In this document: positions 19,650-35,241 of the stretch, piece by piece
How the letters are laid out: every line of letters begins with the position of its first letter
Position numbering within the stretch: position 1 is the first letter of the stretch
Source: Pseudomonadota bacterium
Lineage (GTDB): Bacteria > Desulfobacterota > Binatia > UBA1149
Length of the DNA stretch: 64,000 nucleotides
Assembly (NCBI GenBank): GCA_014382245.1
Contig: JACNKC010000068.1
Coordinates: 7,506-71,505 of the forward strand
Direction of reading: 5' to 3'
The notes under the pieces: generated by a model
Told to the model about the DNA's origin: nothing
The model's database searches: none
The model's input: only the letters and a program-made list of their open reading frames with translations
Position numbers and translations under genes: made by a program

Positions 19650-22600
19650 CTACCAGGCATCAATACAGGGACGCTTCTTTCCGGTGCGCGGCGAGGGATC
19701 CGGCACCGACCTCAGCGCCGACACCACGCGTTGTCTCGAACCGGCGGGATCGATAACGTCGTCGATCTCGAAGTGCGACGCCATGTTGACGGCCTTGCCC
19801 ACCTCGTAGGCGCGCGCGACCATCTTTTCGTAAAGCTCGCGGCGCTCCTGCGGGTCGTCGATGGCCTCGAGTTCCTTGCGAAAGCCCAGCTTGACGGCTC
19901 CCTCCAGGCCCATGCCACCGAACTCGCCGGTGGGCCAGGACACCGTGAACAGCGGAGCGTGAAAGCTGCCGGCCGCCATGGCCTGCGCCCCGAGGCCGTA
20001 GCCCTTGCGCAACACTATGGTCATGAAGGGCACCGTCATGCTCGCGCCGACCACGAACATGCGCGAGGCGTGTCGCACGTTGGCAGATTTTTCGACTTCG
20101 GGTCCGACCATGATGCCCGGCGTGTCGCAGAGGCTGAGCACGGGCAGGTCAAAAGAATCGCACAGCTGCATGAAACGCGCGGCCTTGTCGGCCCCGTCGG
20201 GGTCTATGGCCCCGGCCAGGTGGCCGGGGTTGTTGGCCATGATACCCAGCGGGCGCCCCTCTATGCGCGCGAGCGCCGTGACCATGCCCGCTCCGAAGCC
20301 CGCGCGCAGCTCGAGCACCGAGTTCTCGTCGGCCAGCGTCTCGATGACCGAGCGCACGTCGTAAACGCGCAGGCGGTTTTCGGGTATGGCCTCTCTTAGC
20401 AGGCGCTGGTCGGCTGCCTGCCAGTCATCGACCGGGCCCTGGAAGTAAGAAAGGTAGCGCTTGGCCGTTGCCACGGCCTGCTCTTCGTCGTCGACCAGCA
20501 CATCGACAACGCCGTTGACCGATTGCACGGCAGCCGGGCCAACCTCCGACGGGTGAAAGACCCCCAGGCCGCCGCCCTCTATCATGGCAGGCCCGCCCAT
20601 TCCGATGCTCGAGTTGCGCGTGGCGATGATGACGTCGCAGCAACCGAGCAACGCGGCGTTGCCGGCAAAACAGTAACCCGAGTTCACGCCCACGAGCGGT
20701 ACCAGCCCGCTGAGCTCGCCGAAGTAGCGAAAGGCCAGGCAGTCGAGACCGGCCACGCCGGGCGCGTCGGTGTCGCCGGGCCGCCCTCCCCCGCCCTCGG
20801 TAAAGATGACCACCGGCAGCCGCTGCTCGCGCGCGATCTCGAACATGCGATCTTTCTTACGGTGGTTGAGCATGCCCTGGGTGCCGGCCAGCACGCTGTA
20901 GTCGTAGGACATGACCACGCAGCGCGACGAGTCGTCGGCAAAAACATCGCCGTTGACCCGCCCCAGGCCGCAGACCATGCCATCGGCCGGCGTCTTGCTT
21001 ATAAGATCATCCATCTCGCGGCGGCCGCGCTGGGCGGCTATCACCAGCGCGCCGTATTCTTCGAAGGACCCCGCATCGCAGAGGTCATCCACGTTCTCGC
21101 GGGCGGTACGCTGGCCGGTCTTGCGACGACGCGCGACCACGTCGGGGCGGTTTTCGTCCAGCCCGAAAGCGTGCCTTTCGACAACCTCGGCGAGATCGGG
21201 CCGCACGCGTTCAAGATCAGGAGCCTCTTCGGCCACCCGCGCGGTCGCTTCGGCTTGCGTTTCTTTTATAAGCAGCAGTCGCTGTCCCTCGGTCACCGTG
21301 TCGCCGGCAGACACGTCGATCACCAGCAGTTCGCCCGCCACTGGAGCCGCGATCACGTGCTCCATCTTCATCGACTCCATCACAAGCAACTCGTCGCCGG
21401 CGGCCAGCACCTGTCCGACCTCGACGGCCAGAGAAACCACCGTCCCCGGCATGGCCGAGCACAGGACCCGCTCGCCCGCGTCAGCGACTGATCCGCCGTC
21501 AGCAGGCAGCGCCGGGACAGCGTCGTCTTCGAAAAACAGGCGCCGATGCTTGCCGTCACCGTTGGCCGAAAACTCACTGCCGTGGTCGCCCAGCAACCCG
21601 GTGTACCAGTTGCCCGCTTCGACCTCGGAGTGTTGCAGCAGGTTCTGCAGAAAACCGATGTTGGTGGCCACCCCCTCCACCCTGAATTCGCAAAGCGCGC
21701 GGTAGGCCCTTGCCAGCAGCTCGCCGAGATCTCCCGACGGCCTGGTGACGACCAGCTTGGCCAGCAACGAATCGTAGGCCCCGGCGACCTCGTAGCCGGT
21801 GTAGCCGAGCGTGTCCACGCGCAGGCCCGGCCCTGCGGGAGGGTCGAACACGGCCAGCGTTCCGCCCGAGGGAAGCACGCTGCCGTCGGCCTGCTGCCGT
21901 TCGGCGTTGACCCTGACCTGCAGCGCGATCCCGCTCTGCCTGACGTCATCCACGCCCAGCTCAGACAGCTTGGCGCCGCGGGCAACCTGTAGTTGAAGGC
22001 TGACGAGGTCGAGGCCCGTTACCTGCTCGGTGACCGTGTGTTCGACCTGCAGGCGCGGGTTGGCCTCTATGAAAAACAACTCGCCGGGATCGCCAGCGTC
22101 CAGGTCGAGCAGAAATTCGAAGGTGCCCAGGCCCGTGTAATCGAGCTCGCGGGCCATCAGGAGGGCCGCGTCGCTCATCTGTTTTCGCTGCCCAGCGGAC
22201 AAGGCGACGGCCGGTGCCAGCTCCACCAGTTTCTGGTGACGCCGCTGCAGGCTGCACTCGCGGTCACCCAGCACCACCAGGCCACCGTGCTGGTCGCCCA
22301 GCACCTGGAGCTCGAAGTGTCTCGCTCTCCTGACCAGTTGCTCGGCGTACAGCCCGCCGTGCCCGAAGGCCGACTCGGCCTCCGACCGGCAGCGCAGCAA
22401 GGCCTGCTCGACCTCGTCGGCACTGTACACCGCTCGCATGCCCCTTCCGCCACCTCCGCCGATGGCCTTTACCATCATGGCTGCGCCCTTGCCCAGCGAT
22501 TCCAGGAACGCCTGGGCCCCGGCGAGATCGAGCTCGCCTTCGCTTCCGGCCAGCACCGGCACTCCCAGGCGCCGGGCCAGCGCGCGTGCGCGAGGCTTGT

Positions 22601-22943
22601 CGCCCAGCAGCTCGAGGGTCGCGGGCGCGGGTCCCACGAAAACCACGCCGCGCTCGGCCGCCAACGAGGCAAGGCCGGCGTTTTCGGCCAGGAAGCCGTA
22701 GCCCGGGTGCAGCAAAGCGCAGCCCTCGTCTACAGCGATGTCGAGCAGTTGCTCACCGTCGAGGTAAGCGGCTACGCCGTTGCCCTCGAGACGACGGGCC
22801 TGGTCGGCCACGCGCAGGTGCAGGCAGCGCGAGTCGTCGCCTGCGTAAACGGCCACCGTGCGCAGGCCGAGCTCGGCAGCCGCACGCGCAACGCGCAGCG
22901 CCACCTCCCCTCGGTTCGCTATGAGTATTGATTCACCCGGCAT
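19650..22943 (-). CDS. Single-chain biotin-dependent acyl-CoA carboxylase (BC-BCCP-CT fusion)
   Basis: A 1,097-residue fusion starting at MPGESILIANRGE (ATG 22943; nine further codons are open upstream). Domain order: biotin carboxylase, residues ~1-445 (IANRGEVALR, HPGYGFLAEN, the GGGGGRGM glycine loop, EANPRLQVEHTVTE); biotin carrier, ~490-565, with the biotinyl-lysine in MESMKMEH at about residue 526; carboxyltransferase, ~600-1090 (AGTQGMLNHRKKDRMF, NSSIGMGGPAMIEGGG, LCDTPGIMVGPE, RKGYGLGAQAM). This is the layout and size of single-chain long-chain acyl-CoA carboxylases; substrate may be acetyl-, propionyl- or longer acyl-CoA. It is transcribed away from the MerR-men operon and may share its control region. 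Confidence 0.92.
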   Translation of the reverse strand: MPGESILIANRGEVALRVARAAAELGLRTVAVYAGDDSRCLHLRVADQARRLEGNGVAAYLDGEQLLDIAVDEGCALLHPGYGFLAENAGLASLAAERGVVFVGPAPATLELLGDKPRARALARRLGVPVLAGSEGELDLAGAQAFLESLGKGAAMMVKAIGGGGGRGMRAVYSADEVEQALLRCRSEAESAFGHGGLYAEQLVRRARHFELQVLGDQHGGLVVLGDRECSLQRRHQKLVELAPAVALSAGQRKQMSDAALLMARELDYTGLGTFEFLLDLDAGDPGELFFIEANPRLQVEHTVTEQVTGLDLVSLQLQVARGAKLSELGVDDVRQSGIALQVRVNAERQQADGSVLPSGGTLAVFDPPAGPGLRVDTLGYTGYEVAGAYDSLLAKLVVTRPSGDLGELLARAYRALCEFRVEGVATNIGFLQNLLQHSEVEAGNWYTGLLGDHGSEFSANGDGKHRRLFFEDDAVPALPADGGSVADAGERVLCSAMPGTVVSLAVEVGQVLAAGDELLVMESMKMEHVIAAPVAGELLVIDVSAGDTVTEGQRLLLIKETQAEATARVAEEAPDLERVRPDLAEVVERHAFGLDENRPDVVARRRKTGQRTARENVDDLCDAGSFEEYGALVIAAQRGRREMDDLISKTPADGMVCGLGRVNGDVFADDSSRCVVMSYDYSVLAGTQGMLNHRKKDRMFEIAREQRLPVVIFTEGGGGRPGDTDAPGVAGLDCLAFRYFGELSGLVPLVGVNSGYCFAGNAALLGCCDVIIATRNSSIGMGGPAMIEGGGLGVFHPSEVGPAAVQSVNGVVDVLVDDEEQAVATAKRYLSYFQGPVDDWQAADQRLLREAIPENRLRVYDVRSVIETLADENSVLELRAGFGAGMVTALARIEGRPLGIMANNPGHLAGAIDPDGADKAARFMQLCDSFDLPVLSLCDTPGIMVGPEVEKSANVRHASRMFVVGASMTVPFMTIVLRKGYGLGAQAMAAGSFHAPLFTVSWPTGEFGGMGLEGAVKLGFRKELEAIDDPQERRELYEKMVARAYEVGKAVNMASHFEIDDVIDPAGSRQRVVSALRSVPDPSPRTGKKRPCIDAW

Positions 22944-23025
22944 GCAACCCGTGTTCTGCCAGCCCGGCACCGGGGTGTCCAGTGTTTCCGGTTAAATCTC
23001 CCCGGCACGCGCGCCCCCGCGTGGC

Positions 23026-23062
23026 TTGATATTGCGAGTACTTGCTCTTAGAGTACTAACTC
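23026..23062 (+). promoter_or_regulatory. Promoter and paired operator in front of the MerR-men operon
   Basis: TTGATA (23026-23031) and TAGAGT (23049-23054) are 17 bases apart and would place the transcript start at about 23061, next to the MerR ATG at 23063, so the mRNA may be leaderless. Two direct copies of GAG-TACT-NN-CTC (23036-23047 and 23051-23062), 15 bases apart, cover the spacer, the -10 box and the start region; each copy is roughly palindromic (GAG...CTC around AGTACT). This is a likely binding site for the MerR protein itself. Confidence 0.5.
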
Positions 23063-23821
23063 ATGGAATACAGCGTGGAAGAACTTTCACGGAGCTGCAA
23101 CCTGAGCGTGGACACCGTGCGTTACTACCAGGGACGCGGCCTGCTGGCCCCACCCCGCAAGCTCGGCCGCCGTGCGGTGTACGACCAGCGGCACGTCGAC
23201 AGGCTCAGGATCATTCGATCCATGGCCGACAAGGGTCTCCCGCTCAAGGTAATATCTACCCTCCTCGACCCCGAGCCCGGGCAGCGCAGCGACCGAGCAC
23301 TGCTGGCGGCCCTCGAAAAGCACGACGAGCAGGCCGGCATCAGTTCTACTGAAATGGCAGCCCGCCTGGGAGTGCCGCGCTCGCTGCTAACCTCGGTAGA
23401 GAAAACCGGCCTGGCGGAACCCCAGCTGGACCAGTCAGGCGCGGCGCGCTACAGCCGGGGCGATCTCGAGGCTGCGCGCGAAGCGCTCAAGCTGCTGGAC
23501 TGGGGCTTTCCTCTTCACCGACTGCTCGCCCTGGCGCTGAAGCACGACCGGGCGGTACGGCGGATGAGCGACGAGGCCATAGACCTTTTCAACTCGCACG
23601 TGCGCAAAAAGAACCGTGGCTCGCAGGAAGCCGACCCCGAAGAAGTGGCGCGAGCCTTCAGGGCTATTCTACCCGCCGTGACCGGCCTCGTGGCGCACCA
23701 CTTCCAGAGGGTACTGGTCAACCGCGCGCTCAAGCGACTGAAAAAAAGCGGCGACAAAGGGCCGCTGAGGGTCGCCCTGCGCGAGTCGGGGCGGCACCGG
23801 GTGGGCCTCAAGTGGACCTGA
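23063..23821 (+). CDS. MerR-family regulator heading the menaquinone operon
   Basis: A 252-residue DNA-binding protein. The N-terminus is a MerR helix-turn-helix with wing (YSVEELSRSCNLSVDTVRYYQGRGLLAPP...YDQRHVDRLRIIRSMADKGLPL). A second, weaker helix-turn-helix-like stretch follows (SSTEMAARLGVPRSLLTSVEKTGL...YSRGDLEAAREALKLLDWG), so the protein may carry tandem DNA-binding units. The C-terminal ~90 residues are helical and lack obvious metal-binding cysteines, so the signal is not a thiol-bound metal in the classical way. The stop codon overlaps the menG start by 10 bases, so regulator and pathway are co-translated; it probably controls its own promoter and hence the men genes. There is no Shine-Dalgarno room before its ATG. 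Confidence 0.82.
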   Translation: MEYSVEELSRSCNLSVDTVRYYQGRGLLAPPRKLGRRAVYDQRHVDRLRIIRSMADKGLPLKVISTLLDPEPGQRSDRALLAALEKHDEQAGISSTEMAARLGVPRSLLTSVEKTGLAEPQLDQSGAARYSRGDLEAAREALKLLDWGFPLHRLLALALKHDRAVRRMSDEAIDLFNSHVRKKNRGSQEADPEEVARAFRAILPAVTGLVAHHFQRVLVNRALKRLKKSGDKGPLRVALRESGRHRVGLKWT

Positions 23822-24507
23822 GGCTACCGGCCGCCCACGAGAAAGCCCGCATCGTAGAGCATATGTTCAACCGCATATCGGGGCGCTACGACCTGCTCAA
23901 CCGGGTCATCAGCCTCGGGCTGGACCGCGCGTGGCGCCGGCGGACCATCGCCTGCCTTGGACTCAAACCCGGACAGCGACTGCTGGATCTCGCCTGCGGC
24001 ACCGGCGACCTGTCCGAGTTGGCCGCCCGCGCCGGCACGCAGGTGGTGGGAGTGGATTTCTCGCAGGGCATGCTCGAACAGGCCGAGGCCAGGGAAATAG
24101 ACGCAGAACTGTTGCGCGCAGACGCGGCCAGGCTGCCGTTTGCCGACCGCAGTTTCGACGCCATGACTTGCGGCTTTGCCCTGCGCAACTTCGCCGACCT
24201 CGCCGTCGTGTTCCACGAGACCGCGCGGGTGCTGAAAACCGGTGCCCGTATCGCCCTGCTTGAGGTAGACGAGCCGGCCAACCCGCTGGTCGCCTCACTG
24301 CACCGTCTTTACTTCGGCCGCTTGGTGCCCCTGGCCGGCCGCCTGCTTTCGGACCGCGCGGCTTACAGCTACCTGCCGGCCTCGGCTTCGTATCTCCCCT
24401 CTCGAGAAAAGCTGCGAGAGATGCTGGAAGACGCCGGCTTCGACGACGTGAACCACCAGCGGCTGGCGGCCGGGGCAGTGCAGATTGTGAGCGCCACGAG
24501 GAGTTGA
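23812..24507 (+). CDS. menG: Demethylmenaquinone methyltransferase
   Basis: A 231-residue class I SAM methyltransferase of the MenG/UbiE family, which adds the final C-methyl group to demethylmenaquinone. Motif I is LLDLACGTGDL, then VVGVDFSQGML, DAARLPFADRSFDAMTCGFALRNF (the family-typical 'fALRN'), and RVLKTGARIALLEVDEP. The opening VEHMFNRISGRYDLLNRVISLGLD is characteristic of UbiE/MenG. GTG 23812 overlaps the regulator; an in-frame ATG 17 codons in would still leave the fold intact. The rest of the men pathway follows, so menG is the better name than ubiE. Acts at the membrane surface on the lipid-bound quinone. Confidence 0.93.
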   Translation: MDLRLPAAHEKARIVEHMFNRISGRYDLLNRVISLGLDRAWRRRTIACLGLKPGQRLLDLACGTGDLSELAARAGTQVVGVDFSQGMLEQAEAREIDAELLRADAARLPFADRSFDAMTCGFALRNFADLAVVFHETARVLKTGARIALLEVDEPANPLVASLHRLYFGRLVPLAGRLLSDRAAYSYLPASASYLPSREKLREMLEDAGFDDVNHQRLAAGAVQIVSATRS

Positions 24508-24511
24508 GCAG

Positions 24512-25852
24512 TTGACCACCGACAACCCGCGAACAGACCTGCAGTACAAGCGCGAAGTCTTCAAGGCGTCGTCGCTGGATATGCCGGTGCTGTGCCCCGG
24601 CGACGGCCCGCACTTCAGCTGGATCGACCCCGACGGCACGCGCGTGGCTTCGAGCGGCGAGGCCGCGGTAATAGAAACCAACGGTGCCGCTCGTTTCACG
24701 GACGCGAGCCTGCAGGCGGCACGACTCTACTCGCGGGTAAGCGCGCAGGGCGAGGGTGAACTGCTGCCACTGCTCGTGGGGGGATTCGCGTTTTCGGACC
24801 AGCAGCAGGTCGGTGGTTGCTGGCGCGGTTTTCCGGCGTTGCGCCTGCTGCTCCCGCGCGAGCAATGGATCTGCAGAGACGGGTGGATAACCCGCTTCAG
24901 CCTCAAGGGTGAGGCTGCCGCTGCCTCGCCTTTCACTGGATTGCCTCTCACGGGCGCGCCGGCTGGCCAGGTTGCTGACGCCGTCATGGCAGACGCGCGG
25001 GCCGAGGATTTTCGACACTGGGCCTCCAGGGTCGAGCTCGCCCAGGCCGCCATGCGGGAGGGAGAACTGGACAAGGTGGTGCTCTCGCGCTGGTCGCACG
25101 GCGAGCGGCAACGGCCCGACCTCAAGGCCCTGCTCACTCGGCTGGCCCGGCAACGACCAGCCTGTTTCACTTTTGCGCTGGAGCACACCGGGGCCTTGCT
25201 GCTCGGTTCCAGCCCCGAACTGCTGGCCTCACTGACCCGGGAAAAACCCTCCCGGCGCAGGCTACGCAGCGTGGCACTGGCCGGCAGCGCCCCGCGCGCG
25301 ACCGACCCCGGCGAAGACCGTGCCGCGGCGACAGCGCTCATGTCCTGCGCCAAGAATCGTCGAGAGCAGGCCTTGGTAGTCGAGGCCCTGGTCGCGGGTT
25401 TTGAGGAGCTTGTCCTTTCGCCCGAGTACGACGACAGGCCTTCCTTGCTGGCGCTGCCCGAGGCCTGGCACCTGGGCACCGCGATCAGCTCCCCGGCCGA
25501 CGAGCTCGACTCGCTGCTCAGCGCCGTAGACACCCTGCACCCAAGCCCCGCGGTCTGCGGTACGCCCCGTGAGCCGGCCAGGGCGATTATCGAGGCGAGC
25601 GAGGAGCGCGGTTGGTACACCGGCGGCGTGGGCTGGATGGACTCGCGCGGTGACGGGCAGTTCGCGGTCGTGCTCCGGGCAGCGCTGTACCGGGACGGGG
25701 CGCTGCTGCGCCACGCCGGAGCGGGCATACTGCCCGGTTCGACAGCCGAGCTGGAGTGGCAGGAGTGCGAAGCCAAGCTGCGCGCGATGTCGCCTGTCGA
25801 CGGCCGGGACGCCACCGACCGCAAGCCCCGTGACGAGCAACATGCAGCCTGA
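24512..25852 (+). CDS. menF: Isochorismate synthase
   Basis: A 446-residue chorismate-binding enzyme that turns chorismate into isochorismate, the first step of menaquinone synthesis. C-terminal catalytic motifs are SVALAGSAPRATDPGED, AVCGTPREPA and GAGILPGSTAELEWQECEAKL, typical of MenF/EntC; LDKVVLSRW and LLLGSSPELL lie before them. The start is TTG 24512 with GAGGAG a few bases upstream (about 24497-24502), four bases after menG. The position directly before menD favours MenF over EntC or a salicylate synthase. Cytoplasmic, needs magnesium. Confidence 0.92.
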   Translation: MTTDNPRTDLQYKREVFKASSLDMPVLCPGDGPHFSWIDPDGTRVASSGEAAVIETNGAARFTDASLQAARLYSRVSAQGEGELLPLLVGGFAFSDQQQVGGCWRGFPALRLLLPREQWICRDGWITRFSLKGEAAAASPFTGLPLTGAPAGQVADAVMADARAEDFRHWASRVELAQAAMREGELDKVVLSRWSHGERQRPDLKALLTRLARQRPACFTFALEHTGALLLGSSPELLASLTREKPSRRRLRSVALAGSAPRATDPGEDRAAATALMSCAKNRREQALVVEALVAGFEELVLSPEYDDRPSLLALPEAWHLGTAISSPADELDSLLSAVDTLHPSPAVCGTPREPARAIIEASEERGWYTGGVGWMDSRGDGQFAVVLRAALYRDGALLRHAGAGILPGSTAELEWQECEAKLRAMSPVDGRDATDRKPRDEQHAA

Positions 25853-27683
25853 AGCCAACGTGACCGCCGCACGGCAACTGGTAACTGCGCTGTTCGCCGC
25901 GGGAGTGCGCGATGCGGTCATCTCGCCCGGATCGCGATCGGGGCCGCTTGCCCTGGCCGCGGACGAGCTGCCCCCAGAACTCGATCGCTGGGTCATCACC
26001 GACGAGCGCAGCGCCGGGTTCTTTGCGCTCGGCCGTGCACGGCAATCGGGCCGCGTGCCGCTGCTGCTGTGTACCTCGGGTACGGCCGCCGCCAACTACC
26101 TGCCCGCGGTAGTCGAAGCTTCGAATTCGGGCGTTCCCCTTCTGTTGCTCACCGCCGACCGACCGCCGGAGGCACGCGCCTGGGGAACCCCGCAGACCAT
26201 CGTCCAGCCGGGGCTCTACGGGGACCACGCGCGCTGGTCCTGCGAACTGCCCTGCCCTGCCGCCGACCTCGACCTGGAGGCGTATTTCCAACGGCTGGCG
26301 GCGCGTGTAGTCTCGACGGCCACGGGGCCACGGCCGGGACCGGTGCACCTCAATTTCCCTTTCCGCGAACCGCTGCTGCCGACCATCCCCGGGCAGGTGG
26401 CCACCGGTAGAGACCGCGCCCCCGGGGTTTCGGTAATAGGCGGCGTGAGCCGGCTCGAACCATCCGTCATAACCGAGCTCGCCTGTGAGCTGCAGGGCAA
26501 ACGGCGCGGACTGATCATCGCCGGGCCGTCTGCGTGTGACTCGACCAGCCCCGTTCCCGAAACGATGTTAAATCTCGCCCGACTGCTCGGCTGGCCGCTC
26601 GTGGCCGACCCCCTGTCGGGGCTCAGACGCGGACCGCACAAACAGGACGACATCATCGCGCACGCTGACCTGCTGCTCGACCACCCTGACTTCGCCAGGT
26701 TCGCCCGCGGTGCCGACTGCATACTGCGAGTAGGCGACCACCCGGTATCGCGGAGACTGCAGGCACTGCTCGTCGACACCCGCGACGGCGCACGGCAGTT
26801 ACTGCTGGCTCGCCAGGGACACTGGAACGACGCCTCTCACTCGGCCTCGCTGTTGCTACAGGCCGACCCCGTGGCCACGCTGCGCTCGCTCTGCGACGAG
26901 CTGCGCGGCCCACTGACCGGTAAGGCAGCGGCAACCCCCGGCGACAAGGCCGACCCCTCGTGGCGGCAGACCTGGCTGGACGCCGACGCGCGCCTGGGCT
27001 CGTCGTTGGCCGATTCACTGGCCGACTCGCTGGCCGACGACGAGAAACTCTTTGCTGGAGCCCTGCTGCCCACGCTCACCGACAGCCTGCCGACCGACGC
27101 TGCCCTGCTGCTGGGCAACAGCATGGTGCTGCGACATTTCGACGCCTTCGTTGCCGGCGGCGCGGCGCCGGGCTTCACGTTTGCCAACCGCGGCGCGAGC
27201 GGCATAGACGGCCTGCTGGCGACCGCGGCCGGCATAGCCGCGGGGCACAACGGTACAACAGTGCTGCTGCTCGGCGATCTGTCGTTTCTGCACGACCTCG
27301 GCAGCCTGCACCTGTTGCGGCAGGAGCAACCGGACCTGGCCATTGTCGTGCTCGACAACGGCGGCGGCAGTATCTTTTCGTTTCTACCTGAAGCGGCTTA
27401 CGGCGAATCCTTCACGCGCTGTTTCACCACGCCGCATAAAGCCGACATCGCCGCCGCGGCTATAGGAACGGGAATGGAGCAGGTAATCGCGGTGAGCCGA
27501 CCGTCGGCTTACCTCGGAGCCCTGCCGGGTTTTCTCGCCGGCACTGGGCCGCGCCTGCTGCTGTGCCTGACCGGCAGCGCAGAGTCCGAGCACAATGAAT
27601 TCAAGAGCATCATCGCTGAGGTCCTCTCCTCTCTCGATAACTCTGCAAGCCTGGATAGTGGATCGCAGGGGGAACCCCGGTGA
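25842..27683 (+). CDS. menD: SEPHCHC synthase (2-succinyl-5-enolpyruvyl-6-hydroxy-3-cyclohexene-1-carboxylate synthase)
   Basis: A 613-residue thiamine-diphosphate enzyme joining isochorismate and 2-oxoglutarate. Start ATG 25842 (NVTAARQLVTALFAAGV) overlaps menF by 11 bases; the frame open further upstream is the menF shadow. Signature segments: AVISPGSRSGPLALAA, DERSAGFFALG, LLCTSGTAAANYLPAVVEA, LLTADRPPEARAWGTPQTI, GNSMVLRHFDAF, NRGASGIDGLLATAAGIA and LGDLSFLHDLGSLHLL (ThDP/Mg site). It is longer than E. coli MenD (556), partly from the insert near residues 365-400, which contains three SLAD repeats (about 27000-27040). Cytoplasmic. Confidence 0.95.
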   Translation: MQPEANVTAARQLVTALFAAGVRDAVISPGSRSGPLALAADELPPELDRWVITDERSAGFFALGRARQSGRVPLLLCTSGTAAANYLPAVVEASNSGVPLLLLTADRPPEARAWGTPQTIVQPGLYGDHARWSCELPCPAADLDLEAYFQRLAARVVSTATGPRPGPVHLNFPFREPLLPTIPGQVATGRDRAPGVSVIGGVSRLEPSVITELACELQGKRRGLIIAGPSACDSTSPVPETMLNLARLLGWPLVADPLSGLRRGPHKQDDIIAHADLLLDHPDFARFARGADCILRVGDHPVSRRLQALLVDTRDGARQLLLARQGHWNDASHSASLLLQADPVATLRSLCDELRGPLTGKAAATPGDKADPSWRQTWLDADARLGSSLADSLADSLADDEKLFAGALLPTLTDSLPTDAALLLGNSMVLRHFDAFVAGGAAPGFTFANRGASGIDGLLATAAGIAAGHNGTTVLLLGDLSFLHDLGSLHLLRQEQPDLAIVVLDNGGGSIFSFLPEAAYGESFTRCFTTPHKADIAAAAIGTGMEQVIAVSRPSAYLGALPGFLAGTGPRLLLCLTGSAESEHNEFKSIIAEVLSSLDNSASLDSGSQGEPR

Positions 27684-28570
27684 CGGTCACCGCGTCGCCA
27701 CCGGCAGTGGTAGCCCTGCACGGCTTTACCGGTAGCGGTGCGGCGTTTGGCGACGCCGTCAACGGTCTGTTGGGCGCCGATTCCACCGGCCACGACTCTG
27801 TTGGCCGCACCCCCGGACACGGCCCCACGACAACCCGGTCGCCCGACCTGCCGGGCCACGGTACAGCCGAGGCGTACCGACAGGCAACATGCTTCGAAGA
27901 CGTGTCGGCTCAACTGGCGCTCGACATAGCCGGACGCTGCGGCTACGGGGTAGACCTCGTCGGCTACTCCATGGGTGGGCGACTGGCCCTGCACTTGGCC
28001 TGCACGCAACCGGGATTGGTCGGACGCCTGGTGCTCATAAGCGCCTGCCCCGGCATAGAGGACGAGAACAAACGAAGCTCCCGCCGGTTCTCCGACGAGC
28101 AACTGGCCGTGTCGCTGGAGACGGACGGCATAGAGGTTTTCGTGGAGCACTGGGAGGCGCTGCCGCTTTTTGCCGGCATTGCCCGCCTCGACGCGGGTGT
28201 TCGCAGCGAACTGGACCGGCAGCGAATAGCCTGCGATGCGGCCGGGCTGGCGCTGGCGCTCAGGTGCATGGGCACCGGATCACAACCGTGGCTGGGCAAC
28301 TGGCTGGCCGGCCTGGACCTCCCGGTACTGTTGATCGCCGGCAGCGAAGACGAAAAATACGCCACCATCGCGAGGCAGATGCACGACCTTATTCCTCGTG
28401 CGCGCCTGGCCATCATCGACAACAGCGGGCACTGCCCACACCTGGAACAGCCGCAGGTCGTGGGCGCGCAGCTCCAGGCTTTTCTTGGCCCCCGACGAGC
28501 ACCGGCGCGACCACCGCGGGGCTCTCAACAGGACCCGTGCACTACGGAACAAAGGAGAGCCCGACAGTGA
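27680..28570 (+). CDS. menH: SHCHC synthase, alpha/beta-hydrolase fold
   Basis: A 296-residue alpha/beta hydrolase that eliminates pyruvate from [18 protein letters not shown] is the MenH oxyanion segment, [16 protein letters not shown] holds the nucleophilic Ser, [11 protein letters not shown] the acid, and [15 protein letters not shown] the His. The segment DLPGHG and [13 protein letters not shown] also match MenH. It starts at GTG 27680 in a 4-base overlap with menD, and its stop overlaps menB (GTGA). The C-terminal ~30 residues are Arg/Pro-rich and likely disordered; they may reflect read-through of the overlap region. Confidence 0.9.
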
Positions 28571-29388
28571 GCACAGCAGACTGGCAGAGCGTAAAGGACT
28601 ACGAAGACATCAACTACCTCAAGGCCGAGGGCATCGCGCGCATATCGATCAACCGGCCGCAGGTGCGCAACGCTTTCAGACCCCTGACCGTGAGCGAACT
28701 GATCGACGCGTTCGCCCACGTGCGCGAAGACCCCGACACCGGCGTGGTCGTACTCACCGGCGAGGGCGACGACGCATTCTGCAGCGGTGGCGACCAAGGC
28801 GTGCGCGGCTCCCAGGGCTACGTTGACAGCGCCGGCGTGGCGCGACTGAACGTACTCGACCTGCAGAAAATGATACGCAGCCTGCCCAAGCCAGTCGTGG
28901 CCATGGTCAAGGGCTGGGCGGTGGGCGGTGGTAACGTGCTGCAGGTGGTGTGCGATCTTTCCATTGCCGCCGACAACGCGCGCTTCGGCCAGACCGGCCC
29001 CCGCGTGGGAAGCTTCGACGGCGGCTTCGGGTCGAGCTACCTGGCGCGGCTGGTCGGCCAGCGCAAGGCCCGCGAGATCTGGTTCCTCTGCCGCAATTAC
29101 TCGGCGGCCGAAGCGCTGAAGATGGGACTGGTCAACGCGGTAGTGCCGCTTACCGAAGTAGAAGAAACGACGGAGTCCTGGTGCCGGGAGATACTGCGGC
29201 ACAGCCCGCTGGCCTTACGCTGCATTAAGTCAGGACTCAACGCCGAGCTCGACGGCATGGCGGGCATACAGGAGTTGGCCGGCAACTCGACACTGCTGTT
29301 CTACATGAGCGAAGAAGCGCAGGAGGGCCGCGACGCGTTCATGCAGAAACGCGACCCTGATTTTACGAAGTTCAAGAGGGTGCCTTGA
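28567..29388 (+). CDS. menB: 1,4-Dihydroxy-2-naphthoyl-CoA synthase
   Basis: A 273-residue crotonase-family ring-closing enzyme. It starts at GTG 28567 overlapping menH; the longer frame upstream is the menH shadow. Key parts are [103 protein letters not shown] and the C-terminal [17 protein letters not shown]. These are diagnostic for MenB. Unlike the MenB/BadI-like gene at 6.7-7.5 kb it sits in the men operon. It converts succinylbenzoyl-CoA to dihydroxynaphthoyl-CoA in the cytoplasm. No dedicated thioesterase (menI) is seen in the cluster. Confidence 0.96.
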
Positions 29389-30353
29389 GTCGCCACGACA
29401 ACGACGACACTGCGACCGGCCAGGCGCGGCCGTACCAGGTGCCACCAGCTCAAGCGCTTCCAAGCCCACCTACACCAGCTCCGGGAAGCTTGGCCGCGTG
29501 GGCGAGTGCTTGCCGCCCGCGTACGCTGACAGCGTCGTTATCACCGGTGGCGGTAGCCCTGGCGCTGTCGTGGAGCCGCGGACCTATCGACTGGCCCATT
29601 GCCCTGCTCTGCGTTCTCGCGGCGGTGGCCATACAACTGGCCACCAACCTCGCCAACGACTATTTTGACTTCGCGAGCGGCGCCGACAACTCCAACAGGC
29701 TGGGGCCCACGCGCGCTTGCCAAGCCGGATTGCTGACACCTCGAGCCATGCGCAACGCCACGGTGCTCTGTCTTGCCGTCGCCGCCTGCTGTGGGCTGTG
29801 GCTGGTCGCCCGCGGGGGGCTGCCGGTACTCGTGCTGGGAGCGATTTCGCTCACCTGCGCGGTGGTTTACACCGGGGGACCGTGGCCGCTGGCTTACCAC
29901 GGGCTGGGTGACGTGTTCGTATTCGTGTTCTTCGGACCGGTCGCCGTTCTCACCACGCTGTACCTGCAGGGGCACGCCCCCGGGAGAGTAGACCTGCTCG
30001 CCTCGTTGCTACCCGGGGCCGCTGCGACCGCTCTGCTGGTGGTCAACAACCTGCGCGACATCGACGGCGACCAGCGCGTGGGCAAAAATACGCTGGCCGT
30101 GCGCGTGGGCAAGCGGGCTACCCGGCTGCAGTACGCCCTGCTGCTGGCGGCCGCCCTGCTCGCCCCGATGCTGGCCGCGATAGCAGGCGACCATGCGTGG
30201 CTGGCCTTGCCCCTCCTGCTCGCCCCCGTGGCCGCCAGGGAGGTCCACCTGCTGGGCCAACGCAGCGGTGCCTTGCTCAACGAAAGCCTGGCCGCCACCG
30301 CGCGCTTGCACGCGGTCGGCTGCCTGCTGTTGTCCGTGGGCGCAGTGTTGTGA
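29385..30353 (+). CDS. menA: 1,4-Dihydroxy-2-naphthoate polyprenyltransferase
   Basis: A 322-residue UbiA-family integral membrane protein with 8-9 hydrophobic helices, which attaches the polyprenyl tail to dihydroxynaphthoate. The first aspartate-rich motif is [15 protein letters not shown] and the second is [37 protein letters not shown] precedes the first helix as in MenA. The N-terminal ~35 residues are Pro/Gln-rich and likely disordered, an extension relative to typical MenA. Start is TTG 29385 in a 4-base overlap with menB. Confidence 0.93.
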
Positions 30354-30363
30354 GGAACCCGGC

Positions 30364-31530
30364 GTGAAGATTCTCCACGCGGCTATCGGTCAGCGCGCTT
30401 ACGCGCTGCGCACACCCCTGCGCAGCGCTGCTGGCGCGACCGGCGAAAGGAAAAACCTGCTGCTCAAACTCGACTGTGAACAGGGGCTGCAGGCGGTGGC
30501 CGAAGCCGCTCCCCTGCACTGGCAAGATCACGGGTCTCTTGATCTGGTACGTCGCCAACTCGAAAAGCTCGTGGACTGGATAAACGCCGAACGGCCGACG
30601 GTCAGTCAACGAAACAGCCTGCTCCCGGAAACCGCAGACGAAATCCTGGAGCGCGCAGGCCTCGCCCGTGCTGCCGCCGAAACAGCCTGCGCGCTCGACT
30701 GTTCGCTACTCCGCCTTGCCGCCCAGCGTCAAGGCCTCGACGTACCCCGGCTGCTCGCGGCGGGCGGCGCGGCGAACGGCGGCGCGGCGAACGGCGGCGC
30801 GGCGAACAGCGGCGACGAGCACGTTTCGCCGGTTCTCAACATCGGCATTCTGCTCACGCAGGCCGACAACGATGGGCTGCGCGGCGAGGCAGAGATCGCG
30901 CTCGACAACGGATACCGTTGTTTCAAACTCAAGGTCGGCTCGCTGGACCTGGCAGAAGACCTCGATCGACTGGCCCGCCTCCGGCGGGCCGTCGGCCCTG
31001 GCTGCGAAATACGCATCGACGCCAACCGCGCATGGACCCCCAACCAAGCCGCCACCGCCTTGGCCTCCATGGCTGACTACCACCCCTCCCTCGTCGAAGA
31101 ACCCCTGGCAAGGCCCGACCCCGACGCGCTGCAGAAACTGGCCGCCGCGGGCGTTGCCCTGGCGCTAGACGAAAGCGTGCGCAACACCACCGACCTCAAC
31201 CGGCTGGCAGGCCGGCCCGGCGCGGTGAGCCACTTGCTGCTCAAAACACAGCGCCTGGGAGGAATTCGCCCCGCGCTCGGCCTGGCCCGGCGCGCGCGGC
31301 AGTTGGCCCTGGAACCGATCGTAACCGACAGCATAGAGGGCGTGGAGGGCAGCCTTGCTGCGCTCGAAGTTGCCCTCGCGTCGCGTTCAAACGATGCCGT
31401 GGGCCTGGGCGGGGCCGCCCTCATCGTCGACCACCCGCTGACAACCCGGGCAGGCGTGACACTCGCCCAAGCCCTGACCCTGGCCAGCAAGGGGTCGCCC
31501 GCCACCGGTAGCGCTACGGTGACATGCTGA
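30364..31530 (+). CDS. menC: o-Succinylbenzoate synthase
   Basis: A 388-residue enolase-superfamily enzyme that dehydrates SHCHC to o-succinylbenzoate. It starts at GTG 30364, 10 bases after menA. Catalytic elements: FKLKVGS (acid/base Lys), RIDANRAW (metal Asp), LVEEPL (metal Glu), LALDES (metal Asp) and LLLKTQRLGG (second Lys). SDSIEGVEG-like TDSIEGVEGSLAA completes the site. Residues ~134-148 hold three perfect GGAAN repeats coded by a 15-bp tandem repeat (30763-30807), a linker not expected in the family. It overlaps menE by 7 bases. Confidence 0.93.
   Translation: MKILHAAIGQRAYALRTPLRSAAGATGERKNLLLKLDCEQGLQAVAEAAPLHWQDHGSLDLVRRQLEKLVDWINAERPTVSQRNSLLPETADEILERAGLARAAAETACALDCSLLRLAAQRQGLDVPRLLAAGGAANGGAANGGAANSGDEHVSPVLNIGILLTQADNDGLRGEAEIALDNGYRCFKLKVGSLDLAEDLDRLARLRRAVGPGCEIRIDANRAWTPNQAATALASMADYHPSLVEEPLARPDPDALQKLAAAGVALALDESVRNTTDLNRLAGRPGAVSHLLLKTQRLGGIRPALGLARRARQLALEPIVTDSIEGVEGSLAALEVALASRSNDAVGLGGAALIVDHPLTTRAGVTLAQALTLASKGSPATGSATVTC
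30763..30807 (+). repeat. 15-bp tandem repeat x3 inside menC (GGAAN repeats)
   Basis: Three exact 15-base units (30763-30777, 30778-30792, 30793-30807) code for GGAAN three times. A fourth partial unit ends in AANSG. The insertion is in frame, lies between the N-terminal cap and the barrel, and could expand or contract without harm. Confidence 0.9.
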
Positions 31531-32972
31531 TCTCGCCGCAGTCGACAGCATCGGCCGCCGACTACCTGGCCGACAGCTTAGCTGCCCTCACCGTGCACTC
31601 GCGAGTGATGGCGGTGCTTGCCGGCCCGGGTCCGGCCTTCGCCGCCCTGCTGGAAGTCGCACGCCACAGGCAGTTTGTGCTTGCACCGCTGGACCCGCGC
31701 CTGCCCCCCCGGGAGTTGTTGGAACGCCTGCGCCGCTTACACGTCGGCCTGCTTTTGTACGAACCCGTGGCGTCCAAGCTCGTAGAAAAGCTGGCCGGCG
31801 AGCTGTCTCGAGGTGACCGCGGCCGGCCCGAAGACCTGGCAGGCAGCGGGCTGCTGGGACTTGTTTTCAACCCGGTGCTCAACCCGCCATCGAAGGTGGG
31901 TGAGGGCCGGCCGCTGGACGAAGGCCTTGCCCGGGGGGGCGGCACGCTGCTGTTCACCTCGGGTACGGCCGGGCAGGCCCGCGCGGTGTTTCACGGCTGG
32001 AGGGCGCACGAGACGGCCGCCGCTTGTTCGCGGGCCAACCTGGGCACCCGCGAGCGGGACCTGTGGCTCGCCAACCTGCCCGTGCACCACGTGAGCGGCC
32101 TGTCAATTTTCGTCCGCGCCTCGATCGACCGTGTTCCCGTCGTTGCCCAGCCCCGCTTCGACCGCGAGGCTACGCTGGACGCCATCGAAAACCGTGGGGT
32201 CACCCTCGCCTCGGCGGTCCCGACCATGCTCGGACGCCTGCTCGACCTGCTGGACGACCGCCCCTTGCGCGGACGACTACGCGCCCTGCTGCTGGGTGGT
32301 GCGCCCTGCCCCGGGTCGCTGCTGACGAGAGCGCTGAGGGCCGGGTTCCCCTTGCTGGCGACCTGGGGCATGACCGAGACAGCCGCCCAGGCCGTCACCG
32401 CCCGGCCCGGTGAAAAGACGCCCCCGCAGAGCTGCGGCCGGCCACTACCCGGGGTCTCCGTAGCCGTCAGGGCACCCGGCTCGCCGGAGGCCCGAGGCAG
32501 CGGCCACGGCGAGTTACTGGTCAAGACTCCTGGCTTGATGGCGGGCTACCTCAACGATCAGGGCAAGGCCCCGATCGAGCTCAACGATCACTGGTTCGCC
32601 ACCGGTGACCTCGGCCGGGTGGACGAGCAGGGGTTCGTTTACTGCGAAGGTCGACGCGACGACCTCATCATAAGCGGCGGCGAGAACGTCAACCCCAGCA
32701 GGGTGGAAGGCGTTCTGCGTGAGCACGAGGACGTATTGGACGCGGCCGTTTTCGGCCTCCGGCACACCGAGTGGGGTCGACAGGTCACCGCGCGCGTGGT
32801 CCTAAAGCCAGGGGCTTCACTGTCAAAAGTCGCGCTCACCGAGTGGGCGCGCGAGAGGCTGGCGCCTTTCGAGCTTCCCCGGACCATCGAGTTCAGTGAC
32901 GACATTCCGCGGGGGCCATCGGGCAAATTACTGAGGCTATCGCTGCCGCGCTCTACCGACTCGCCGTTGTAA
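31524..32972 (+). CDS. menE: o-Succinylbenzoate-CoA ligase
   Basis: A 482-residue ANL-superfamily ligase that activates o-succinylbenzoate with ATP and CoA. Motifs: LLFTSGTAGQARAVFHGWR (ATP loop, P-loop-like with S/T/G), HHVSGLSIF, GGAPCPGSLLTRA, ATWGMTETAAQAV, FATGDLGRVDEQGFVYCEGRRDDLIISGGENVNPSRVEG, and the C-terminal catalytic Lys in PRGPSGKLLRL. The last gene of the men operon; its start ATG 31524 overlaps menC by 7 bases. Cytoplasmic. With menG-F-D-H-B-A-C it completes the pathway except for a separate DHNA-CoA thioesterase. Confidence 0.92.
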   Translation: MLISPQSTASAADYLADSLAALTVHSRVMAVLAGPGPAFAALLEVARHRQFVLAPLDPRLPPRELLERLRRLHVGLLLYEPVASKLVEKLAGELSRGDRGRPEDLAGSGLLGLVFNPVLNPPSKVGEGRPLDEGLARGGGTLLFTSGTAGQARAVFHGWRAHETAAACSRANLGTRERDLWLANLPVHHVSGLSIFVRASIDRVPVVAQPRFDREATLDAIENRGVTLASAVPTMLGRLLDLLDDRPLRGRLRALLLGGAPCPGSLLTRALRAGFPLLATWGMTETAAQAVTARPGEKTPPQSCGRPLPGVSVAVRAPGSPEARGSGHGELLVKTPGLMAGYLNDQGKAPIELNDHWFATGDLGRVDEQGFVYCEGRRDDLIISGGENVNPSRVEGVLREHEDVLDAAVFGLRHTEWGRQVTARVVLKPGASLSKVALTEWARERLAPFELPRTIEFSDDIPRGPSGKLLRLSLPRSTDSPL

Positions 32973-33045: not shown

Positions 33046-35241
33046 TTGCACGACGAATACGCCCAGCACCACGACAGCAGCAAGGCGGCCTTCGCGCTTG
33101 CCTGCGCCCTGCAACTCGCCCTGCCCTGCGCGGGCGTCGTCCGTGCCCAGCCACCGCTGGTAACCATAACCCGCACTGACAATCCACCCGTAATAGACGG
33201 CCACCTGGACGACGCCACGTGGCAGGACGCCGCCGTCATCGACAGCTTCCGACAGGTTGAGCCGGTCGAGGGTGCTGATCCCAGCGAGCGCACGGTGGCC
33301 TACCTCGCCTACGATGGCGACAACATCTACATAGGCGTGCGCTGCTTCGACAGCGAGCCGGAAAAGATAGTCGCGCACCAGCTGGTCAAAGACTCCTTCC
33401 TGCTGAGCGAGGCGCGCATAAACGTGATGCTCGACACCCTGTTCGATCGACGCAACGCCTACCTGTTCCAGGTCACTCCCCTCGGCACCAGCAGCGAGGG
33501 ACGGGCCGAAAACCAGACCACTTACCGGCACGAGTGGGACGCGATCTGGTCGGCAGCCTCGATCATTGACGAGCACGGCTGGTCGACCGAAATGGCGATT
33601 CCTTTCAAGAGCGTGAGCATGGACGCCGACTCGACACGCTGGGGCCTCGAAATCGAACGCCACATCCGCCGCCGCAAAGAGAAAATAAAGTGGGGTTCAA
33701 TCTCGCAGTCCTACAGCATCACCGACCCCGCCAATTACGGAACCATGGAGGGACTGGAGGGAATACAGCAGGGATTGGGCCTGGACATACAGCCCTCGCT
33801 GGCGATGAGCAGCCGCTGGAACGCGGCGGCCGACGATGCCGACCTGGCCATGGAGCCCTCGGTCGACGTGTTTTACCGGGTGACGCCTTCAATGACGGCT
33901 GCGTTCACGGCCAACACTGATTTTTCCGACGCCGATGTCGACCTGAGGCAAACCAACCTGACGCGCTTCTCATTGTTCTTTCCCGAGACCAGGGATTTCT
34001 TTATCGAGGACGCAGGGGTCTTCGAGTTCGGAGGCCTCAAGCAGAACGGTACGCCGTTTTTCTCCCGCCGAATCGGACTTGACGCCGACGCCCAGCCGGT
34101 CGACCTTGTTGTCGGTGGCAAGCTCGCCGGTCACGTGGGGCCCTGGGACCTGGGCCTGCTCGACGTCATGGTAGGAGATTCGACGCAGGTCGACTCAAAA
34201 AACCTCACCGTGGCCCGGGCCACGCGCGACCTCGGCAGCAAATCGCGGGCCGGCTTCATTGCCACTCACGGCGACCCGTTGAGCGACGGCGACAACACGC
34301 TGGCGGGCCTGGACTACCGCTACCGCGACAGCCGTGTCGCCGGCGACCAGGTGCTTGTGGCCAGGGCCTGGGCCCAGAAAAGCTGGACCGACCCAGCGAC
34401 CGGCGAACCACCTGTCGGCGACAAGGAACTGGCCTGGGGCGTATCGGTTGATTGGCCCAACGATCGCTGGAACGCCGGGGCATCGGTTGCCGAACTGCAG
34501 GAAGACTTCCTGCCCGCGCTGGGTTTCGTCAACCGCACCGGCATTCGCGACTACCGGGCAAACCTCAGGTTTCGACACCGCCCTGGCAGCGGACCTGTTC
34601 GCCACGTCGACAGTGGATTCACGGCACGAACGGTGACCGACACCGGCGATAGGCTGGAAAGCGTACAAGTAGACGTTGACTATCTCGTCCTCAGCAACCA
34701 GGCCGGCGACAGGCTCAGCTTCGCGTGGTCGTTCCTGGAAGAGGACACCAGCGAGGACTTCGAAATAGTCGCGGGCACCATCATCCCGCCCGGTGACTAC
34801 CGCTACCAGCGGCCGGCGGTACGCCTCGACACCAGCCCAACGCGACCGGTGGCGGGCAAGCTTCACGTCAAGTGGGGTGAGTTCTATTCAGGGAACATGG
34901 TCAACACCGCAGCCGTGCTGGAATTGCGCCCCTCGCCGCATTTCTTCCTGTCCTGGGAACACCAGTACATAGACGCGCAGCTTCCCGAGGGCGACTTCAG
35001 CATCCACCTGTCACGACTCGGTTTCGACGTGAACCCGTCTACGCGGGTGAGTTGGCGCAACCTCGTTCAGTGGGACAACCAGGGCGACCAGCCGACGCTT
35101 AACAGCCGGTTGCTCTGGATACCCGAACCCGGGCGAGAGCTTTCGTTGGTGGCCAACCAGGCCTGGGACAAGTCGGGCAGTTCGTTCACAACAACGACAG
35201 CCGACTACACGCTTCGCCTGTCGTGGACCCAGCGTTACTGA
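33046..35241 (+). CDS. DUF5916 outer-membrane protein with N-terminal CBM9-like domain
   Basis: A 731-residue secreted protein, TTG start at 33046 with a hydrophobic leader ending VRAQ. The first part is a carbohydrate-binding family 9-like domain (PPVIDGHLDDATWQDAAVIDSFRQVEP, VAYLAYDGDNIYIGVRCFD, EMAIPFKSV). After residue ~220 the DUF5916 region begins (YGTMEGLEGIQQGLGLDIQPSLA) and continues as alternating strands ending in an aromatic-terminated C-terminus (LRLSWTQRY), the pattern of an outer-membrane barrel. SLFFPETRDFFIEDAGVFEFGG is a DUF5916 hallmark. The role is unknown; a sugar- or lipid-related surface function is suggested by the CBM-like part. No operon partner; 73 bases after menE. 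Confidence 0.85.
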   Translation: MHDEYAQHHDSSKAAFALACALQLALPCAGVVRAQPPLVTITRTDNPPVIDGHLDDATWQDAAVIDSFRQVEPVEGADPSERTVAYLAYDGDNIYIGVRCFDSEPEKIVAHQLVKDSFLLSEARINVMLDTLFDRRNAYLFQVTPLGTSSEGRAENQTTYRHEWDAIWSAASIIDEHGWSTEMAIPFKSVSMDADSTRWGLEIERHIRRRKEKIKWGSISQSYSITDPANYGTMEGLEGIQQGLGLDIQPSLAMSSRWNAAADDADLAMEPSVDVFYRVTPSMTAAFTANTDFSDADVDLRQTNLTRFSLFFPETRDFFIEDAGVFEFGGLKQNGTPFFSRRIGLDADAQPVDLVVGGKLAGHVGPWDLGLLDVMVGDSTQVDSKNLTVARATRDLGSKSRAGFIATHGDPLSDGDNTLAGLDYRYRDSRVAGDQVLVARAWAQKSWTDPATGEPPVGDKELAWGVSVDWPNDRWNAGASVAELQEDFLPALGFVNRTGIRDYRANLRFRHRPGSGPVRHVDSGFTARTVTDTGDRLESVQVDVDYLVLSNQAGDRLSFAWSFLEEDTSEDFEIVAGTIIPPGDYRYQRPAVRLDTSPTRPVAGKLHVKWGEFYSGNMVNTAAVLELRPSPHFFLSWEHQYIDAQLPEGDFSIHLSRLGFDVNPSTRVSWRNLVQWDNQGDQPTLNSRLLWIPEPGRELSLVANQAWDKSGSSFTTTTADYTLRLSWTQRY

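Follow-up and report, generated by a model that had tools for sequence, protein, structure and literature searches.

A candidate MerR-type autoregulatory switch at the head of a classical menaquinone operon

In the literature that we found, control of the menaquinone (men) pathway lies at the level of the enzymes, mainly in the inhibition of MenD by DHNA (PMC9835592; PMC12421875, in the portions available). This feedback is also control of the pathway, but as described in those portions it is allosteric, acts on an enzyme and proceeds without a transcription factor. The original prediction on the locus presented here stated that no MerR regulator of classical men genes was known, and our search of open-licence PMC papers likewise found no men-linked MerR protein. 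A MerR switch heading a men operon has apparently not been described before and is apparently kept in several distantly related bacterial groups; for the MerR family its target, operator and domain combination are new. A men-linked transcription factor with an operator conserved across phyla would give a handle on the setting of the respiratory quinone level, would offer a ready-made quinone-pathway biosensor and would exemplify the deep conservation of an operon that is leaderless and autoregulated.

The closest curated family is FtsR (Rv1828; NF050798), the actinobacterial MerR regulator of ftsZ. It matches residues 13-202 of our regulator and is similar in size, but the 55.5 bits are far below the family cut-off of 150. 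In M. tuberculosis a site between the -10 and -35 elements of a ftsZ promoter has been proposed for FtsR (PMC6683498, available excerpt). According to the same excerpt FtsR acts on ftsZ through a 25-bp repeat, whereas the regulator described here would act on men genes through GAGT-N4-ACTC; unlike FtsR, it heads its own putative target operon, in an autoregulatory geometry. HspR is a MerR-type repressor with GAGT/ACTC half-sites that acts on its own promoter too (PMC6102357, as excerpted). Our protein reaches 43.6 bits against the HspR model (NF047375; cut-off 105). The HspR HAIR element given in that excerpt, CTTGAGT-N7-ACTCAAG, differs from GAGT-N4-ACTC in its outer CTT and in half-site spacing (7 versus 4), and HspR targets heat-shock genes whereas our regulator sits with men genes. 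The activators MerR, CueR, CadR and SoxR resemble it in their N-terminal winged helix-turn-helix (wHTH) and in a palindrome placed in the promoter spacer. Promoters of this activator type have a spacer of 19-20 bp (PMC9909328, in the part available); the locus presented here differs in its 17-bp spacer, second MerR-like domain, helical C-terminus and biosynthetic operon. Finally, the adenylyl-cyclase regulatory domain Rv1264N bears on the C-terminal half, but here there is no cyclase and a MerR DNA-binding domain precedes.

The men operon and its promoter

The window, by which we mean the whole stretch of 64,000 nucleotides that was analysed, contains the following genes.

23063-23821, plus strand: MerR-family regulator, 252 aa (residues 1-70, MerR wHTH; about 90-155, second degenerate MerR-like domain; about 151-248, helices)
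23812-24507, plus strand: menG/ubiE methyltransferase (TIGR01934, 218 bits, over cut-off)
24512-25852, plus strand: menF isochorismate synthase (TIGR00543, 242 bits, over cut-off)
25569-27683 (listed ORF), plus strand: menD (TIGR00173, 413 bits, match from residue 100; true start probably near 25.85 kb)
27680-28570, plus strand: menH (TIGR03695, 212 bits, over cut-off)
27889-29388 (listed ORF), plus strand: menB (TIGR01929, 432 bits, match from residue 238; true start probably near 28.57 kb)
29385-30353, plus strand: menA (NF004751, 287 bits, over cut-off)
30193-31530, plus strand: menC-like enolase-superfamily o-succinylbenzoate synthase (TIGR01927, 93.6 bits, below the cut-off of 130.55; named by operon position; true start probably after 30353)
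31524-32972, plus strand: menE-like acyl-CoA ligase (TIGR01923, 285 bits, below the cut-off of 330; also named by position)

The men genes 3' of MerR are packed or overlapping, and most score over curated NCBIfam cut-offs. The MerR ORF ends at 23821 and the GTG of menG is at 23812, which gives the 10-base overlap that had been predicted. A DUF5916/CBM9-like protein of 731 aa (33046-35241) lies 3' of menE on the same strand. Upstream of the MerR gene the following elements were located.

23026-23031, plus strand: -35-like TTGATA, read directly and found by promoter scan
23036-23047, no strand: predicted core operator, palindrome 1, GAGTACTTGCTC, inside the promoter spacer (family consensus GAGT-N4-ACTC)
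23049-23054, plus strand: -10-like TAGAGT, 17 bp from the -35 element and 8 nt before the ATG at 23063
23051-23062, no strand: palindrome 2, GAGTACTAACTC, overlapping the -10 element and the predicted transcript start; lineage-specific
23060-23063, plus strand: predicted zone of the transcript start (leader of 0-3 nt), placed from the -10 position

The -35/-10 pair with 17-bp spacing that had been proposed at 23026-23062 can be read directly (TTGATA, 17 bp, TAGAGT), and its geometry is fixed among relatives, the spacer measuring 17 bp both here and across the position-aligned family. A simple promoter scan of 4 kb found 1 promoter-like site against 0.3 expected, which by itself is weak evidence. 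The two 12-mers are identical at 10 of 12 positions and lie 15 bp apart, and the pattern GAGY-N4-RCTC-N3-GAGY-N4-RCTC occurs once in the window. Directly 5' of the -35 element a GC-rich inverted repeat, CACGCG...CGCGTG (23006-23023), was called terminator-like by the scan. Assignment of the element to the divergent carboxylase-like gene (19650-22970) was dropped: the stretches fetched around other MerR genes, extending some 1-2 kb upstream, contain the element but yielded no homologue of that gene.

To follow the element through the family we used the upstream regions of 107 homologous loci, 12 of which were dropped as same-gene duplicates. The genome labels of the remaining 95 are Binatota, Myxococcota/Deltaproteobacteria and Actinomycetota; these loci share kinship, so that their count does not equal 95 independent events. 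The palindrome was scored at -45 to -18, with 473 windows lying 100-300 bp further up as controls. GAGY-N4-RCTC was found exactly in 82 of the 95 unique upstreams compared with 1.1% of the control windows; when one mismatch was allowed, the figures were 90 of 95 and 8.7%. By eye, nearly all of a first set of 27 MerR upstreams show the block, the deviating ones being L054 and L056. Five of the 95 have more than one mismatch at -45 to -18. Two of them (L172, L176) carry an exact palindrome further upstream, consistent with a misassigned start codon, in a third (L158) the palindrome is displaced to -47, and in L115 and L116 the first copy is degenerate and the second intact.

When the 90 loci were aligned on the palindrome, GAG (positions 0-2) was conserved at 99-100% and ACTC (positions 8-11) at 92-100%. 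A T three bases 5' of the palindrome is present in 90%, and near -35 the alignment reads TNGAC, with the A in 93%; further up there is little conservation. The string T[TC]GA lies exactly 10 nt 5' of the palindrome in 40 of 90 loci, against 0-4 at the other offsets tested. The most frequent -10 variants are TAGAGT (30 loci), TAGAAT (19) and AAGAGT (18); A-11 (position 2) is found in 86 of 90 loci and T-7 (position 6) in all 90. From the end of the -10 element to the start codon the gap is 6 nt in 53 loci and 8 nt in 28. A second palindrome, allowing one mismatch, is present in 27 of the 28 loci of the 8-nt class and in 0 of 53 of the 6-nt class.

The transcript start was placed from the general characteristics of sigma70 -10 elements, including their distance to the start of transcription. 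Because the gap is fixed (6 or 8 nt in 81 of 90 loci) and an SD-like string occurs in only 1 of 95 upstreams, a leaderless mRNA is predicted. MerR-men transcripts should thus be leaderless, with a start beside the MerR start codon as the original prediction had it. Its claim of paired sites at 23036 and 23051 holds for the window, where both 12-mers are found, but the pairing is not general and is limited to the window's clade and a few other lineages. Similarly, the proposed motif GAG-TACT-NN-CTC is conserved as a palindrome, but the conserved unit is GAGT-N4-ACTC and the TACT is local. The search for the motif upstream of other men operons with a linked MerR gene, suggested at the time, recovers the single palindrome at the frequency given above, and the pair in the 8-nt class but in no locus of the 6-nt class. 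The second palindrome as an essential element was accordingly rejected. As judged from the alignments, the 8-nt and 6-nt classes are two architectures of one switch, and palindrome 1, within the promoter spacer, is the universal part of the predicted operator.

We consider it very likely that this palindrome is the operator of the linked MerR protein, since the palindrome and the MerR DNA-binding domain are jointly absent in eight genomes (see below). Conservation of the block is in part that of the promoter itself, with its -35 and -10 elements, and judging from the sensor-only relatives in men clusters, the C-terminal part may be able to function without binding DNA. One might then suppose that only a strong leaderless core promoter is conserved and that MerR acts elsewhere or at the protein level. 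This we regard as very improbable: a palindrome between -35 and -10 is no part of a sigma70 promoter, yet its positions 0-2 and 8-11 are 92-100% conserved over 90 loci, and the eight genomes that are without the DNA-binding domain lack the palindrome too.

Bound at this operator, MerR would probably act as a repressor, because the spacer is already of optimal length (17 bp) and the core promoter lies partly within the sites; these two features are the grounds for the direction of control. Many of the characterised MerR proteins are activators, however, and the closest curated family, FtsR, activates ftsZ (PMC6683498, in the excerpt available). With a -35 element that is imperfect in many loci, MerR could use the same palindrome to help RNA polymerase at a weak -35 promoter, like FtsR at ftsZ. 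We find activation unlikely, as the spacer is 17 bp and not 19-20, the -10 element is good at A-11 and T-7, and in the window's lineage the second palindrome lies over the -10 element and the start.

Domains of the regulator

The N-terminal wHTH is recognised by PF13411 (86.2 bits, cut-off 21.6). Residues 1-70 form a standard MerR domain whose fold matches CadR, SoxR and CueR, with a best Z of 12.9 (CadR Z 12.7, 1.1 A over 68 residues). For the family alignment we started from 80 named-genome loci, of which L167, L173 and L182 were skipped by a length and open-end filter; L114, L117, L149 and L158 were left out by hand from the remaining 77, and 7 other loci and the window were added, giving 81 rows. 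The recognition region D17, T18, R20, Y22, Q23 and R36 is invariant in 81 of 81. Domain 1 aligns with a second domain (residues about 90-155) in hhalign with probability 96 and E 4e-9. The recognition helix of domain 2 has no invariant counterpart of these six residues, and therefore the second MerR-like domain is probably not DNA-binding. Further along, F214 is invariant and conservation reaches at least 90% at H161 and H213, while no cysteine is found among the invariant or nearly invariant columns of the alignment.

The latter result bears on the possibility that MerR responds chiefly to a general stress (heat, redox) in the manner of HspR or SoxR, with the men operon as its output and not the source of its signal. 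The half-site GAGT/ACTC is indeed common to the HspR HAIR repeat (PMC6102357, as excerpted). However, the half-site spacing differs, the conserved columns offer no cysteine, and either menG or menF comes first downstream of MerR in 75 of 80 loci, so that we give a stress response only a small chance.

An AlphaFold model built from 18 rows (pLDDT 70.6) was replaced by one from the 81-row alignment (pLDDT 88.2, pTM 0.61). The top Foldseek match of the latter is Rv1264N (2ev1_B; E 1.5e-4, 179 columns, rmsd 8.9), at modest TM-scores of 0.54 (TMt) and 0.41 (TMq). In VIA-align the rows mostly span residues 1-155, and Rv1264N is not among the 50 entries listed. PF16701 (Ad_Cy_reg) matches 14 of 81 members (best 4.7e-7) and, when the C-terminal parts are taken separately, 10 of 81 (best 1e-5); the window protein scores 16.9 bits, below the Pfam gathering score of 28.6. 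The C-terminal parts match NF050798 in 78 of 81 cases (best 3.6e-10). A C-terminal profile run against PDB sequences retrieved MerR structures down to E 2.2e-5 and did not find Rv1264 at E<=1, which speaks against a close homology to Rv1264.

Distribution with men genes and the proposed switch

Among 58 genomes, the window's own and relatives, a MerR ortholog was found in 26 others, the weakest (G028) in two pieces. The gene directly after MerR is menG in 25 of these 26 relatives, and in the exception, G055, the sequence stops at a contig edge. The order MerR-menG-F-D-H-B-A-C-E is kept in relatives where the contig allows and a homologue is detected. MenD scores over the cut-off in 28 of 58 genomes, 26 of which have MerR too. 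The other two are G012, where the men contig begins inside menF, and G033, with a men locus without MerR. The G033 men operon (L186) is of the same class, with no MerR 5' of menF. MerR without menD was found in one genome of the 58, again G055, where the locus is at a contig end. Two genomes of the window's genus (G001, G002) have neither menD nor a MerR ortholog, so that the operon has a patchy distribution even inside this genus.

A scan of genome contigs with the single protein gave no matches; with the alignment, 342 relatives were found among 355 stretches, and 80 were kept. The record titles of these 80 best loci name Binatota/Binatia, Deltaproteobacteria, Myxococcota, Actinomycetota/Acidimicrobiia, a few Proteobacteria and one Acidobacteria. 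In the tree the window falls in a 17-row clade with the nearest Binatota-titled rows (100/100), which points to a Binatota bacterium as its host. In 65 of the 80 loci menG is next, in 10 menF follows without menG, and 5 have neither, three of these being contig ends (L115, L137, L173). Further sets of 112 Myxococcota and 119 Actinomycetota genomes were scored on the best 22-24 candidates per genome. The former yielded 19 strong matches (E<1e-80), 18 with menD, and the latter 21 strong full-length matches (E<1e-75), all 21 with menD. The menD search covered 80 of the 231 genomes of both sets, namely those with matches and 16 Myxococcota-set genomes without; menD is present in 10 of these 16.

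The paired pattern with at most one mismatch gave, in the 58 genomes, the MerR start and a scatter not above the reversed-pattern control. At two mismatches the own genome has 8 forward and 6 reverse matches, compared with 14 and 18 for the control. In 48 other genomes of the Myxococcota and Actinomycetota sets the single-site pattern has matches in 29, many directly at the MerR start, and its other matches are scattered and mostly of one mismatch. A regulon wider than men was dropped, as matches away from the MerR start are about equal to, or below, the reversed control. In each genome searched, the paired site is essentially unique. One exception, G088, has a second exact copy that does not differ from the first and lies 26 bp from a contig end; it is probably an assembly duplicate. 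This uniqueness, along with the MerR-menG-F-D-H-B-A-C-E synteny, supports the earlier suggestion that one site may serve the whole pathway.

In 8 other genomes of the 119 in the Actinomycetota set only residues 71-231 or so are matched, and menD is present in all 8. The proteins (L188-L195; e.g., L190:8324-8878, L189:7939-8460) match the C-terminal two-thirds of the regulator. Their gene adjoins menF in 8 of 8 fetched stretches, and most are also near menG and menD. The palindrome is absent within 300 bp upstream of the C-terminal-only domain in 8 of 8 genomes, and the single-site pattern likewise has no match in these eight genomes. A possible role for these proteins is that of a stand-alone quinone-pathway sensor, and they amount to a natural experiment that separates sensing from DNA binding.

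We think it quite likely that the locus is an autoregulatory switch of the men operon, with MerR likely repressing and a signal entering through its C-terminal half. A sigma70-type promoter with a 17-bp spacer would give a leaderless MerR-menG-F-D-H-B-A-C-E transcript, and the product of its first gene would bind GAGT-N4-ACTC in the promoter spacer; in the window's lineage the second palindrome copy would cover the -10 element and the transcript start. MerR would repress its own operon and be relieved by, or depend on, a signal at the C-terminal half, plausibly a pathway product, quinone or lipid. That this signal is a quinone or a lipid is a tentative proposal. More speculative still is a widespread regulator family for the classical menaquinone pathway, in which a MerR domain, a degenerate MerR-like domain and a Rv1264N-like lipid-binding helical domain would sense the menaquinone pool or a prenylated or DHNA intermediate, and sensor-only forms in other Actinomycetota men clusters might act directly on a Men enzyme.

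Counting against the switch are the G033 men operon without MerR and three genomes with MerR and no menD (L115, L116, L119). All three retain a closely related MerR paralogue, with an operator that is degenerate or shifted. The L115 sequence runs out at a contig edge; in L116 and L119 an amidohydrolase gene lies 3' of the paralogue, which suggests that there the switch may have been taken over by another operon.
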